From Treponema sp. (lineage in GTDB: Bacteria > Spirochaetota > Spirochaetia > Treponematales > Breznakiellaceae), in assembly GCA_031255615.1 (NCBI GenBank), contig JAIRSD010000263.1, positions 1-14,299 on the forward strand: 14,299 nt of DNA. Reading direction: 5' to 3'. Position numbers and translations under genes: made by a program. The notes under the pieces were generated by a model. The model searched no databases. It was not told where the DNA came from and was given only the letters and a program-made list of their open reading frames with translations. This document shows, in pieces, positions 4,947 to 9,280 of this stretch; positions within the stretch are counted from its first letter, which is position 1; every line of letters begins with the position of its first letter.

Positions 4947-7184
4947 TTAAATCAACCCCAATTCCTTGAAAAGTTTTTTGTAGGTGTCGAAATACTCGGA
5001 CCGGGCGAATTCTTCGATTTTTTCTTCCGGCAGGGATTCCAGCAGTTGATCCATGTAGGAAAGCACCTGTTTCAGTTCGGTCTTGAAACCTCCGGGCAGG
5101 GCGGAAACTTCCGGTTCATCGATATCTTCGATCTCCGCTGCGTCTTTTCTGTTTTCCGGCGGCGCGTCTTCGGGAATTTCTTCCAGGGGGAGGACTTCTT
5201 CCAGAGAATCGATGCCGCCGGGTTCGGCCTCGTCTTCCGCATCCGCGACCACAAAGCCTTCGGGGATGATCTGATCCAGATCCTCTTCCCCGCCGATCCC
5301 CTCATCGGCGGCGGGAATTTCCGGGACCCCTTCTTCCGGCCCGGCAATTTCCTCCCCGCCCCCAAATTCCTCGGCGGAGAAGAAATCCATCGTATCGCCG
5401 GGAAGCTCTATAAGTTCCGGGGTAAGATCCTCGGCGGATTCCCCCAATCCTTCCTCAAGCAAGCCGAATTCATCGGGGGCCGGTTCCATAATGGGATTCT
5501 CCTGGATTTCCGCTCCCAGATCCGGTTCCTCAATGAGGGCGCCGGTTAAATCCAATGCGTCTTCATCAAAATTTTCCAGGGAGACGGCCTCGTCCTCCGA
5601 AAAAGAGGCGTCAAAGGAAATATCCGGTTCCCCAGAATCCGCCGCTGCCTCCTCATCGGGGCTATTTTCCACCGCCGCATCGCCCTCATCGAGGGGAAGA
5701 TCTTCAATATCGGGCAGATCTATAGCAAGGTCTTCAACCGCAGCTTCATCTTCCGCTTCTTCCTCGGGGGGAAGGTCTATGACAAGATCCTCAAGCCCTG
5801 TTTCTTCCCCGTCTTCATCAAGGAAAAGGTCCGCCGCAATATTGTCGTCGGGGAGATCCGCCAGGGAAAACCCGGCATCGTCAGGAATTTCCGTTGGAAG
5901 CTCCGTAGGCAATTCCTCAAGCTCCTCCAATTCAGGCAGGGTTTCTATCTCAAGGGATTCCTCAGCCGCCGGTTCCTCAAAATCAGCCAGTTCGTCAAGA
6001 AGGGCCGGTTCCTCAGCAATCGCCGGTTCTTCGGAGGGCCCGGACTCCCTAAGGGCCGGGGGCACCTCAAAATCCGCCAGCTCATCAAGAAGGGCCGATT
6101 CCTCAGCAATCGCCGGTTCTTCAGGGAGCTCGGGCTCCTCAAGGACCGCCGGTTCCTCCGGCTTTTCTTCCTCCGGGAAAGACGCGGTTTCGGGGGAAAG
6201 AGCATCCGGCCCGGCAGATGCCCCCTCCATAGCGTTTATACCGGATTCTTCGGTAAACTCCGCCGTGTTAAGGATGTTATTGAGTTCATCCCCCGTAAGG
6301 GCGATTTTGTCGTCATTGGCGGTATCGTTGAAAAAACCACGGGATTCCGCGTTTCCCCCCCCCATCGCCCGGACACTGGAAAATTCCCGCTTCAGGGCGC
6401 TTAATTCCGCCCGGATCGAAGAAAGCTCCTCGGCTATTCGCATCAGAAGCTGGGTGGACTGGTCGGAAGAGTCTTCAATCCGGTCTTTACCGCCGCTTGC
6501 TGCCGGCATATCCGAATCGGGAATGTCGTCCGCCACCTCTCCCAGAAGATCTTCCAGGGATATTTCGTCATAATCCGCGTCCCCCAGATCCGGAACGGGG
6601 ATTTCCAGGTCATTGTCCTCCGGAGCCGCCTCCTCAACCGGGGCCTTGTCTTCAATCAGGACCTCGTCTTCCAGCAAAGCATCATCTTCAAGCGGCAGAG
6701 CCTCGTCTTCAACCGGAGCCGCCCCATCATCCGGGGCCGCCTCGCCAGGCTCCTCAGCCGGGGAAATCTCGTCAGGCAGGGCCATATCCTCATCGCTGAA
6801 AGAAAAATCGGGAAAGGAATCGTCCTCGTCCAGGGAGAAGCCGTCCAGATCGAGGGGCTGGTCTCCGGAGTCGAGGGAAGGAAGGCCGTCGTCTTCGGCA
6901 TCGATGTTGAAATCGTCTTCCGGCGGCGGGAGATCCGATTCAGCCTCCGCTTCCGCCAAAGCGAAATCCTGATCGGCGGAAAAATCGGAGGAGGATTCGA
7001 GATCCACGGAGAACTCCGGCAGATCGTCTAACATATCCAGAGAAAAATCTCCCTCCCCCTCTTTATCGCTGTCGGCAAGATCCTGGGGTTCGCTTTTTAC
7101 CCATACCCCGTATTCGTCCAATTCCCTGGCCGAACCAATGGCCCCCCGGTCTTGATATATTGACGGTTCCTTTTCGTGTGCCAT
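4947..7184 (-). CDS. Large Asp/Glu-rich low-complexity protein, first gene of operon
   Basis: A 745-residue, extremely acidic protein with no signal peptide or membrane segment, so presumably cytoplasmic and largely disordered. Three segments look ordered. The N-terminus contains ELDEYGVWVKSEPQDL. A probable coiled coil runs over about 243-275 (QLLMRIAEELSSIRAELSAL), followed by DDKIALTGDELNNILNTAEF at about 289-308. The last 48 residues form a mixed-charge helical domain containing LLESLPEEKIEEFARSEYF. The acidic linkers hold internal repeats. The ATG at 7184 is preferred over a TTG at 7217 because of GGAGG four bases upstream and because the decayed copy starts with the same MAHEK. A G9 run lies at about codon 274. 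A scaffold role for the downstream proteins is speculation. Confidence 0.75.
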   Translation of the reverse strand: MAHEKEPSIYQDRGAIGSARELDEYGVWVKSEPQDLADSDKEGEGDFSLDMLDDLPEFSVDLESSSDFSADQDFALAEAEAESDLPPPEDDFNIDAEDDGLPSLDSGDQPLDLDGFSLDEDDSFPDFSFSDEDMALPDEISPAEEPGEAAPDDGAAPVEDEALPLEDDALLEDEVLIEDKAPVEEAAPEDNDLEIPVPDLGDADYDEISLEDLLGEVADDIPDSDMPAASGGKDRIEDSSDQSTQLLMRIAEELSSIRAELSALKREFSSVRAMGGGNAESRGFFNDTANDDKIALTGDELNNILNTAEFTEESGINAMEGASAGPDALSPETASFPEEEKPEEPAVLEEPELPEEPAIAEESALLDELADFEVPPALRESGPSEEPAIAEEPALLDELADFEEPAAEESLEIETLPELEELEELPTELPTEIPDDAGFSLADLPDDNIAADLFLDEDGEETGLEDLVIDLPPEEEAEDEAAVEDLAIDLPDIEDLPLDEGDAAVENSPDEEAAADSGEPDISFDASFSEDEAVSLENFDEDALDLTGALIEEPDLGAEIQENPIMEPAPDEFGLLEEGLGESAEDLTPELIELPGDTMDFFSAEEFGGGEEIAGPEEGVPEIPAADEGIGGEEDLDQIIPEGFVVADAEDEAEPGGIDSLEEVLPLEEIPEDAPPENRKDAAEIEDIDEPEVSALPGGFKTELKQVLSYMDQLLESLPEEKIEEFARSEYFDTYKKLFKELGLI
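5971..6122 (-). repeat. 90-bp in-frame direct repeat in the acidic gene
   Basis: 5971-6032 and 6061-6122 are near-identical (about 62 bp, 90-bp period). They encode two copies of EEPAIAEE(S/P)ALLDELADFE. The period is exactly 30 codons, so gain or loss of a unit keeps the frame. This points to growth of the linker by local duplication. Confidence 0.8.
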
Positions 7185-7215
7185 GCGTCCTCCGATCCGC
7201 TCCAGAGAAATAAGC

Positions 7216-7234
7216 AACCGGTCTCTACCCGGTT
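7216..7234 (-). promoter_or_regulatory. Conserved leader hairpin upstream of the acidic gene
   Basis: AACCGG and CCGGTT flank a 7-base loop, 32-50 bases before the ATG. The duplicated leader has the same hairpin at 8103-8119, with the loop sequence changed but the inner stem kept. It could be an mRNA 5' structure or an operator. Conservation between the two copies may simply reflect recent duplication. Confidence 0.35.
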
Positions 7235-7531: not shown

Positions 7532-7640
7532 CGCAATTTTCCCGGGAAACGGCGGCGTCCTCCGAAACAGGCGTTATGAGGAAATGTCCGATTCCCCAGA
7601 ATCCGCCCCTTCCCCCGCGGCGAAACTATCCTCCTCCCCT

Positions 7641-8008
7641 TCGTCGAAGGGAAAGTCCGCAATCTCGTCTTCCGTCTCCTCATCGGGGGGAATCTCTATG
7701 ACGAGGTCTTCAATTTCATCCCCCGCATCTTCTTTGGGGGGAAGATTGATGACAAGGTCATCTTCGTCTTCCCCGCCGAGGGGAAGATCCTTGATAAGCT
7801 CCTCAAAGCCCCCTTCCTCCGCGGCTTCATCGGAGCGAAACTCCTCACCAGACTCCGTTTCTTCCGCATCCTCGTCGAAGGGAAAGTCCGCAATCTCGTC
7901 TTCCGTCTCCTCATCGGAGGGAATCCCTACGACGAGGTCTTCAACTTCATCTTTCGCCCCATCCTCGGGGGGAAGATTGATGACAAGGTCCTCCTCGTCC
8001 TCCCCGCC
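7641..8008 (-). repeat. Direct repeat inside the decayed copy, 231-bp period
   Basis: 7641-7777 and 7872-8008 align without gaps at high identity. They encode two versions of DLVINLPP...EDLV(V/I)(G/E)IP(S/P)DEETEDEIADFPFDE. The 231-bp period is 77 codons, so the duplication kept the frame and arose while the sequence was still being translated or was young. Confidence 0.8.
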
Positions 8009-8071
8009 TTCATCGAGGAAAAGGTCCGCCCCAGGGGATTCCCCAGCCGCCGGCCCCTTTTCGTGTGCCAT

Positions 8072-8198
8072 GGGTCCCTCCGATCCGTTTCCGGGAAATA
8101 AACAACCGGCCCCTACCCGGTGTACCGCCATTCCCCCGGAATATTATCGATCTTCATAGAACATCCGTAGTAAGAAATGGTAGCCTAGGGTCTTTTCC
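8072..8198 (-). repeat. Duplicated leader of the acidic gene
   Basis: This stretch aligns with 7185-7310, upstream of the intact acidic gene. Shared parts are the ribosome site, the CCGG hairpin, the CGATAA promoter-like element and the ATCCGTAG block. The alignment stops at about 8198 and 7312, which marks the upstream limit of the duplication. Confidence 0.75.
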
Positions 8199-8250
8199 GT
8201 GTCAATGGAAGCCGAATTTTAACGGAAATTCCCGGTGGAGGGGAGTTATA

Positions 8251-8737
8251 TTGGGCGCATCCCCGGCCCCATGGCCGGGGACCGGGCTATCCGGGGCTCC
8301 GGCTTCGCCTCCGGCCCCGCCTGCGGCGTGGCTGCTCCGCACCCCTCCTATCCCTTGCGCGGAGGCGAAACCAAACCAAAAGGCTGCGCCTTTTGGTTTT
8401 ACGGAGTTTCGCGACGGAACGCGAAACTCCATACAGGGGACGGAATCCCTGGGCTGCCGCACGGAGCGCGGCTGCCGAAAGGCGCAAAACGGCAGGGAGG
8501 CCGAACCAAAAGGCTGCGCCTTTTGGTTTTACGGAGTTTCGCGACGGAGCGCGAAACTCCACACGGGGGACAGAATCCTCGGGGTTTTTGCGGGGCAAAA
8601 ACCCCAGGCCCAAAAATGGCAGGGAGGCCATTTTGGGGCAGCGCAAGGGATAGAAGCGGTATCCTTTTGCCCGGCGGGCCGGGCAAAAGGATTGAAGCGG
8701 ATAGCCCGGTCCCCGCCGGAGGCGGGGATGCGCCCAA
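8251..8737. repeat. 487-bp nested palindromic element
   Basis: Three nested stems frame the element: TTGGGCGCAT at 8251-8260 with 8728-8737; ACCGGGCTATCCG at 8281-8293 with 8698-8710; CTATCCCTTGCGC at 8348-8360 with 8641-8653. Local hairpins fill the space: 8261-8280 (8 bp), 8373-8399 (11 bp), 8403-8430 (11 bp), the second copies of these two near 8504-8529 and 8533-8560, 8581-8605 (11 bp), 8609-8638 (11-12 bp, one bulged A), 8661-8692 (14 bp) and 8711-8727 (7 bp). The open frames crossing it are by-products of GC content and have no protein family. I see no transposase gene. It could be a non-autonomous mobile element, a structured RNA or a DNA cruciform site. Confidence 0.8.
8374..8579. repeat. 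Twin-hairpin unit duplicated inside the palindromic element
   Basis: 8374-8449 and 8504-8579 are direct copies (130-bp offset, only a few mismatches). Each holds an AACCAAAAGG/CCTTTTGGTT hairpin with a CTGCG loop, followed by a GGAGTTTCGCG/CGCGAAACTCC hairpin with an ACGGA(A/G) loop. The mismatches I see inside the hairpins fall in a loop, not in a stem. Confidence 0.85.
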
Positions 8738-8740
8738 AAA

Positions 8741-8761
8741 GAAAACGCCGCGGGGCTTTTC
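8741..8761 (+). terminator. Hairpin with short T-tract just outside the palindromic element
   Basis: GAAAA(C)GCC pairs with GGCTTTTC around a GCGG loop, giving 8 bp with one bulge. TTTT is part of the stem and CCC follows, so it is a weak factor-independent terminator at best. It lies 58 bases before the DivIC/FtsB-like gene and may separate that gene from upstream transcription. Confidence 0.25.
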
Positions 8762-8818
8762 CCTGAATTGGGGATTGGGGATTTAAGAACCGGAGGCCGG
8801 AATCCGTAAATAATACTA

Positions 8819-9280
8819 ATGCGGCTGATAAAATACCTGCTGGTTCTCTGGGTTTTCACGGCGGTCTACGCGGGGATGAGCGTGGTGGCGGGGCCCCGGG
8901 GGATTTTCGCCTACAGCGAGATGCTGGAGGAACAGGAGAAACAGGAAAAAAACATGGAAACCCTCCGGCGGATTAACGCGGAGCTGGGAAACCGGCAGAA
9001 GGCCCTGCTTTACGACAGCGATACCATCCGCATATACGCCCGAAACCTGGGGCTGGGGGGGGTGGACGAAAAATTTGTCCGGATTGTGGGGCTGGGGCAG
9101 GTAAAGAAGGCCCCCCTCCTGCCGGGCGAGGTTGTCGCCGCCGAAGAATCCCGCTCCATCGACAACAAAACAATCCACCTTGTCGCCCTTTTCGCCGCCC
9201 TGGCGGTTTTTGCCGCCCTCCTGATTCAGGATATTCTGGACCTTAATCTCCCCTCTTCGGGGCCCCGGAATTATCGCTAG
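8819..9280 (+). CDS. Septum formation initiator-like (DivIC/FtsB family) membrane protein
   Basis: A 153-residue protein with a short cytoplasmic tip, a membrane segment at about 4-26, a coiled-coil stretch at about 33-62 (EEQEKQEKNMETLRRINAEL) and the family's SDTIRIYARNLGLG motif at about 67-80. These match DivIC/FtsB, which join the divisome core with FtsL/FtsQ-type partners. A second hydrophobic segment at about 119-137 is not typical of FtsB, so the C-terminus may return through the membrane. No good Shine-Dalgarno is near the ATG (the nearest GGAGG ends 22 bases upstream), and an in-frame TAA at 8807 excludes a longer start. A G8 run lies at codons 79-82. It is convergent with smpB. Confidence 0.75.
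   Translation: MRLIKYLLVLWVFTAVYAGMSVVAGPRGIFAYSEMLEEQEKQEKNMETLRRINAELGNRQKALLYDSDTIRIYARNLGLGGVDEKFVRIVGLGQVKKAPLLPGEVVAAEESRSIDNKTIHLVALFAALAVFAALLIQDILDLNLPSSGPRNYR

Follow-up and report, generated by a model that had tools for sequence, protein, structure and literature searches.

The window, a 14,299-nt stretch of Treponema DNA, carries genes for DivIC, SmpB, signal peptidases, and a HemW-like radical SAM protein. The best named homologues of its signal peptidase gene come from Treponema sp., and the habitat of the metagenome-assembled genomes (MAGs) is presumably the termite gut, judging from their isolate codes. Two divergently transcribed genes are separated by a large compound palindrome. 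The features of the window that bear on it are the following.

238–317, no strand: relic or shortened relative, with outer end motifs and hairpins and without the inner core
8177–8205, minus strand: sigma70-like promoter (TTGACA-17-TACCAT) serving the divergent upstream gene, left whole by the insertion 46 bp away
8251–8737, no strand: compound palindrome, two inverted copies around a hairpin-rich interior
8253–8360, minus strand: element copy A, type II, 108 bp, minus-strand reading from GCGCAAGGGATAG to ATGCGCCC
8261–8280, minus strand: hp2 of copy A, self-complementary
8361–8640, no strand: interior of further hairpins, mostly two blocks of ~94 nt
8641–8735, plus strand: element copy B, type I, 95 bp, from GCGCAAGGGATAG to ATGCGCCC
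8647–8708, plus strand: Rfam Flavo-1 (RF01705) match within copy B, 43.8 bits (gathering score 42)
8660–8693, plus strand: hp1 of copy B, with perfect 15-bp arms at 8661–8675/8678–8692 (I7)
8711–8727, plus strand: hp2 of copy B, self-complementary
8819–9280, plus strand: DivIC/FtsB-like septum gene downstream of the insertion

The initial annotation described a single 487-bp element of three nested stems, with perfect hairpins of 7–14 bp in the loops and an order beyond chance. The three long-range stems are present and perfect (8251–8260/8728–8737, 8281–8293/8698–8710, and 8348–8360/8641–8653), the middle one being a portion of an 18-bp perfect stem at 8276–8293/8698–8715. Internal hairpins of 11–15 bp were also found (I7, I8, I11, I14, I15, I17, and I19), of which I8 and I14 carry one mismatch each rather than being perfect. 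The order is borne out by RNA folding of 8245–8745, which gives −312.7 kcal/mol versus a shuffled mean of −222.0 (SD 6.95; z −13.05), with none of 100 shuffles equal to it. The unity of the element was not upheld. The palindrome is a compound, not seamless, of two inverted element copies of ~100 bp with 280 bp of hairpins between them, and each nested stem pairs a motif of copy A with its counterpart in copy B (the end motif, the core, or the 5' motif), all three being common to both copies. The interior is largely a tandem duplication (8360–8453 and 8490–8583, 87% identical), and hairpin blocks related to it adjoin copies in locus L119 and in contigs of genome G001. The shorter element at 238–317, proposed earlier to match the ends of the palindrome, has the left-end motif GGGCGCATCCCCG exactly, at 239–251; its right end, GCGCCCAA, lacks the AT, and its inner part, judged by eye, is missing. 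Long open reading frames (ORFs) overlap the palindrome (e.g., 8065–8766), with no mark of genuine genes seen.

Elsewhere on the minus strand of the window, the ORFs at 7574–8131 and 4947–7217 both have a MAHEK start and acidic repeats. The ORF at 4947–7217 is without a Pfam match, and that at 7574–8131 looks like a truncated tandem paralogue of it.

The repeat unit and its insertion sites

The unit of ~85–115 bp has the plan of a three-way junction, composed of a closing stem (P1), a core around a variable hairpin (hp1), and a second variable hairpin (hp2). The core, AGGGATWGNAGC...GCGNAWAGCCC, flanks hp1, and the aligned unit reads GCGCAAGGGAT W G N AGC - hp1 - GC G N A W AGCCCGGT - hp2 - ATGCGCCC, with usually A-rich sequence after its end. 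Two types have the same ends and differ inside (type I, GRAGCGGAAATAC...; type II, GGAGGGGTGCG...). GCGCA/TGCGC ends are found in the 51 listed copies, for which the search pattern presupposes them, and variants of P1 occur in viral copies. Since P1 closes each unit, it amounts to terminal inverted repeats such as those of classical miniature inverted-repeat transposable elements (MITEs). Facing pairs were observed six times, including that of the window (window and loci L103–L230), with a spacing of 224–537 bp.

Further hairpin blocks, joined by conserved linkers, lie upstream of type I copies in G001. Five of its loci (L213, L218, L222, L223, and L228) contain long chains of such conserved-linker, variable-stem blocks (e.g., GGCGCTATGCGRWGCCRCATT...) upstream of type I copies, and these chains may constitute a second repeat family.

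All 21 loci with a DivIC match (21 scanned, 13 also read) lack the element between the divergent gene and divIC; none is a close relative, with a DivIC identity of 67% at best and 32–51% in the others. A two-mismatch motif match at the divIC site of L052 is not the element. The nearest genomes have no DivIC match, and no relative emerged from an initial genome scan with the DivIC protein. A promoter with the spacing of that of the divergent gene was found in L027, L042, and L081, a weaker match in L070, and none in the other nine loci scanned.

Copies also reside inside genes. In a 2'-5' RNA ligase/Vsr gene (Pfam), the element is present in 5 of 16 distinct orthologues with both halves aligned, four times in reverse and once in forward orientation, the loci being the best 30 of 86 genomes with a match. 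All 16 keep the reading frame, with gap lengths divisible by three, as described for in-frame Rickettsia palindromic elements (RPEs); the window copy is intergenic. The ligase gene of L308, 94–97% identical to that of occupied L300, is without the element and keeps TTGGGCGCA. Since L309, a more distant locus, carries the element at that position, L308 probably reflects loss with a footprint rather than an unoccupied site. Among 63 copies, 3-nt flank repeats that might represent target duplication were observed 15 times versus 8.7 expected, and longer repeats were at chance except for one of 7 nt.

A Y1/RAYT transposase (PF01797) was found in none of the copy-carrying genomes G001, G003, and G004, which are incomplete MAGs, and its absence led to its rejection as the partner in G001; PF01797 is present in G002, G006, G007, and G012. 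G014, a Spirochaetia genome without Flavo-1 matches, has 46 matches to Y1/RAYT-type transposases. No recurrent gene was found beside 28 copies in the sampled part of G551.

Copies in spirochaetes, viral contigs, and plasmids

Relatives were sampled through an alignment of 30 signal peptidases, which led to 80 loci titled Treponema, Spirochaetaceae, Spirochaetia, and a few other spirochaete names. DNA of the window element matches all eight relative genomes searched, and RF01705 matches were obtained in 7 of 17 relatives (5 above the cut-off) versus none of 14 control genomes. Of 392 Spirochaetota genomes, 21 contain the exact 5' motif, some matches being without the full element; no element follows the only match in G292 (L291) or one in G291 (L299), and the reversed pattern matched one genome, G241, among the matches listed. 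The chromosome-sized G001 contains 35 exact 5'-motif matches in both orientations. Within the family of G001, the core pattern was detected in 22 of 58 genomes, with no match to the reversed-pattern control among the matches listed; the two richest genomes are G551, with 195 matches (98 on one strand and 97 on the other), and G553, with 83. The 28 G551 copies share the ends GCGCA...TGCGCCC and a near-constant hp1, have hp2 in many forms, and lie in unrelated flanks.

Most Treponema copies are intergenic. No significant strand preference relative to GC skew was detected (27 of 50; 21 of 32, p 0.11). For 29 copies outside ORFs in a second Treponema set, the orientations to the upstream/downstream genes were same/same in 10, same/anti in 8, anti/same in 6, and anti/anti in 4, with one upstream gene unassignable.

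Two loci are described for their gene content. At L190:1004–3670 (G006, contig C6), two inverted copies bracket a two-gene Septu defence system, consisting of an ATPase (versus PtuA, PADLOC E 5.6e-133) and an HNH protein (versus PtuB, 2.5e-72). At L286:2130–3443, an ORF for a branched-chain-type aminotransferase (PF01063) extends upstream through a copy on its 5' side, and L287, in a second genome, has a homologous arrangement; the start of the L286 ORF is probably over-extended.

The viral version has a longer hp1 arm, and three core patterns yielded 84, 84, and 1 stretches, representing 148 distinct copies. The 22 stretches matched by an initial viral pattern, GAAGCGGATAGCCCGG, are not the element, judging by their context, and a composite query against a phage collection gave no match. 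Relative to naive ORFs, 68 viral copies are antisense, 34 are on the same strand, and 46 lie outside. The same-strand ORFs have the core in all three phases (19, 12, and 3; n = 34), which indicates that a fixed reading frame is not general. In the Microcystis phage Mvi-Yong1342-1, the element sits within an annotated coding sequence, in frame near the C-terminus. Apart from a tRNA, an Rfam scan of 13 earlier viral loci returned nothing at the gathering score; both these loci and the type II copies scanned fall below the Flavo-1 threshold. The copy on viral contig L246, at 34.3 bits also below it, bridges the viral version and Flavo-1. No unoccupied sites were found among the viral contigs, as expected for a set in which nearly all contigs had been picked for the element.

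A first plasmid search with the whole window element gave no match. The plan of the unit, including P1, was confirmed by script in seven of eight plasmid records (one each from Alicycliphilus, P. aeruginosa, and Salmonella, and four from E. coli). It was not confirmed by script for a Roseomonas plasmid match, and matches on Paraclostridium and Leptospira plasmids were judged by eye alone. Matches to a 146-bp query spanning the surroundings of the Salmonella copy occur in 2137 of 5426 E. coli genomes, with 4613 of 4672 places on plasmids, all as partial matches covering less than 80%. The region around the E. coli element is present in 3768 of 5426 genomes, some matches ending at the first base of the element.

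On F-type plasmids of E. coli, the element is flanked by ssb and a methyltransferase gene or is located near DUF932/traM, and its strand is antisense to ssb, psiB, and their neighbours in the leading region; the P. aeruginosa plasmid copy is similarly located beside ssb. The single-strand promoters Frpo1 and Frpo2 have been described in the leading region (PMC9849209, PMC11541004), the latter upstream of ssbF (PMC9849209). The E. coli copies share this location, and the window copy, by its gene context, does not. In L502, the element starts ~240 nt from a long perfect hairpin nearer ssb. Three E. coli plasmids (L503, L504, and L506) have a different hairpin block at the point of the element, in a leading region that contains Frpo, and a fourth such plasmid carries a truncated, chimeric copy. 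The element is thus a replaceable block beside Frpo rather than an evident part of it.

Covariation of the stems

Pairing within copies was compared with pairing between copies in swap tests of hp2, viral P1, and the G553 stems, to which no pairing filter was applied. The arms of hp2 are 95.9% complementary in their own copy versus 41.3% when swapped between 63 copies. For P1, 96 of 133 viral copies with a non-GCGCA arm have a perfect 5-base downstream complement, versus a mean of 19.7 and a maximum of 27 after swapping. In an alignment of 24 type I copies, 91.9% of cells are paired versus 85.5% after shuffling (0/500) and 32–50% when slid; the shuffled value remains at 85.5% because most core columns are invariant, and MAFFT, by losing the register of hp1, leaves this helix only 76% paired. 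In three sets of copies, the W-W pair of the core is Watson-Crick in 75 of 76, 25 of 27, and 8 of 8, taking the forms A-T, T-A, G-C, or C-G; these sets were preselected for an hp2 at least 75% paired, not for W, and their high hp2 pairing is partly by construction. In orthologous viral copies with flanks 92% and 89% identical, the W-W pair is T-A versus C-G, both forms being included in the viral search patterns.

The turnover proceeds almost entirely through Watson-Crick pairs. All 44 long-hp1 copies listed for G553, in a count that repeats an earlier one on 26, comprise 654 Watson-Crick, 3 G-T, 1 A-C, and 2 other pairs, distributed over 18 distinct stems with all four Watson-Crick types at two positions. 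The hp2 count has 6 G-T of 590 pairs, versus 2 A-C, in a total that omits 8 of 76 rows as poorly paired or spurious regex matches. Pairs of viral P1 were counted only with a match at four or more of its five bases, and there A-C (9) outnumbers G-T (4); hp2 (P3) was counted in 124 of 148 viral copies. G-T pairs thus stand at ~1% across the hp2, viral P1, and G553 counts. RNA stems turned over to this extent are expected to pass through, and to keep, G-U pairs. Watson-Crick turnover nearly devoid of G-T suggests instead that both arms were altered together at the DNA level, one being copied from the other. Many GTAG palindromes, by comparison, are described as keeping G-T pairs (PMC3733652).

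Known relatives and rival explanations

The initial annotation knew of no named element with this layout, but part of copy B matches Flavo-1, a family described as a Bacteroidetes RNA (PMC2864571). Copy B and Flavo-1 have the GAAGCGG/GTAGCGG internal-loop core in common and differ in that the Flavo-1 model spans only the hp1 arm, without P1 and hp2. No description of the element family was found in the openly licensed papers searched, core sequence strings included.

Other likenesses are those of description rather than sequence. RPEs, described as palindromes of ~100–150 bp in frame within genes and with no encoded transposase (PMC10969869), resemble the element in these respects, whereas the Treponema element combines a fixed core with interchangeable hairpins in a three-way junction, is mostly intergenic, and extends to spirochaetes, viral contigs, and plasmids. 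REP/REPIN sequences are likewise high-copy intergenic hairpins, often in inverted pairs, but they are described as 20–40 bp long with GTAG or CGTC tags (PMC3733652), whereas the Treponema element measures 85–115 bp, has GCGCA/TGCGC ends and ~1% G-T, and has no Y1 transposase in G001; tag and partner gene exclude it from the REP/RAYT group. Modular hairpin units in variable combinations are known from BOX elements and recur here as in other MITE-like repeats. Of the further features of classical MITEs, no clear target duplication was seen in 63 copies of the Treponema element beyond the small 3-nt excess, and no parent transposon was found in the part of G551 searched. Mitochondrial GC clusters and double-hairpin elements are also short mobile double hairpins (PMC4478555, PMC5910586), likened by description alone and different in being organelle elements. 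By analogy, the element would work like RPEs and MITEs.

The explanation we consider probable, with moderate confidence, is that the 487 bp hold a short, non-autonomous mobile DNA palindrome twice, in inverted orientation, with additional hairpin blocks accumulated between the two copies. This is the option of the initial annotation, a non-autonomous mobile element built by insertion of hairpins into one another, that fits best: the unit has fixed ends, is repeated, is absent at related loci, occurs in frame within genes, and turns over its stems by Watson-Crick changes. A lack of further copies, or copies with uncompensated stem mutations and no defined ends, had been named as grounds for abandoning it; many copies with defined ends were found in relatives, and their stems change with compensation. 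Against a mobile palindrome stand the mobilising enzyme, which was not found in G001 or in the sampled part of G551, the target duplication, which is not clear, and the orientation of the viral copies, which is non-random. The lack of a strand preference by GC skew, the distance of the 21 divIC loci from the window, and the reading of L308 as a loss also count against it.

The main rival is a single-stranded DNA signal like Frpo/ssi, whose folding would initiate RNA or primer synthesis or shield the strand, the chromosomal copies being conjugative or phage remnants. The E. coli copies share with Frpo the leading region and the strand relation to its genes, near the described position of Frpo2 upstream of ssbF (PMC9849209); the P. 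aeruginosa copy beside ssb and the antisense leaning of the viral copies point the same way. The element is nevertheless unlikely to be such a signal, since in L502 it is distinct from the ssb-proximal hairpin, is replaced by another block in L503, L504, and L506, and is dispersed in chromosomes, as the 35 matches in both orientations in G001 and the in-gene copies attest. The listing of Flavo-1 as an sRNA in Rfam, the passing of its threshold by copy B, and covariation as strong as a functional RNA would show would all suit a structured RNA, whether Flavo-1 proper, a small RNA, or a cis-regulator selected as RNA. The large structured RNA envisaged in the initial annotation is disfavoured, and selection as RNA in any of these forms is quite improbable, given the near lack of G-T in turned-over stems (6/590 in hp2, 3/660 in G553, and 4 versus 9 A-C in P1) and the mixed orientation to genes; F. 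psychrophilum matches to Flavo-1 are moreover described as equally sense and antisense, many in untranscribed regions (PMC9723704). An immobile selected DNA site (protein-binding, cruciform, or terminator-like), multiplied by ordinary duplication, would account for the many intergenic copies and the strongly conserved core, but is rendered very improbable by near-identical copies with unrelated flanks, in-frame copies in genes, and relatives on viral contigs and plasmids. A cruciform, the third option raised initially, may still be the active form of the element, as may a folded single DNA strand.

For the mobile palindrome, a probable mechanism can be outlined. Folded as a single DNA strand while DNA is replicated or taken up, the element would spread in trans, mobilised by an enzyme encoded outside it. 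Its hairpin arms would repeatedly be copied from each other by snap-back or template-switch synthesis, which would change both arms jointly with almost no G-T step and produce differing hp2 sequences in otherwise near-identical copies. Inverted pairs such as that of the window would arise when one copy inserted beside another. A broader proposal, which we advance tentatively and hold to be possible rather than probable, is that the element belongs to a widespread class of mobile palindromes, a single-stranded DNA three-way junction that bacterial chromosomes share with phages and conjugative plasmids. Self-templating would rebuild its hairpins, so that each copy may acquire new perfect stems, and Flavo-1 would be a fragment of it, misfiled as RNA.

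If this is correct, an Rfam RNA family would really be part of a widespread mobile DNA element, and the nested palindromes that break Treponema assemblies would have a simple origin. Covarying stems without G-T steps would provide a testable signature of arm-to-arm copying on single-stranded DNA, and the biology of plasmids and phages would share a common structured DNA module, adjoining the known single-strand promoters of E. coli plasmids.
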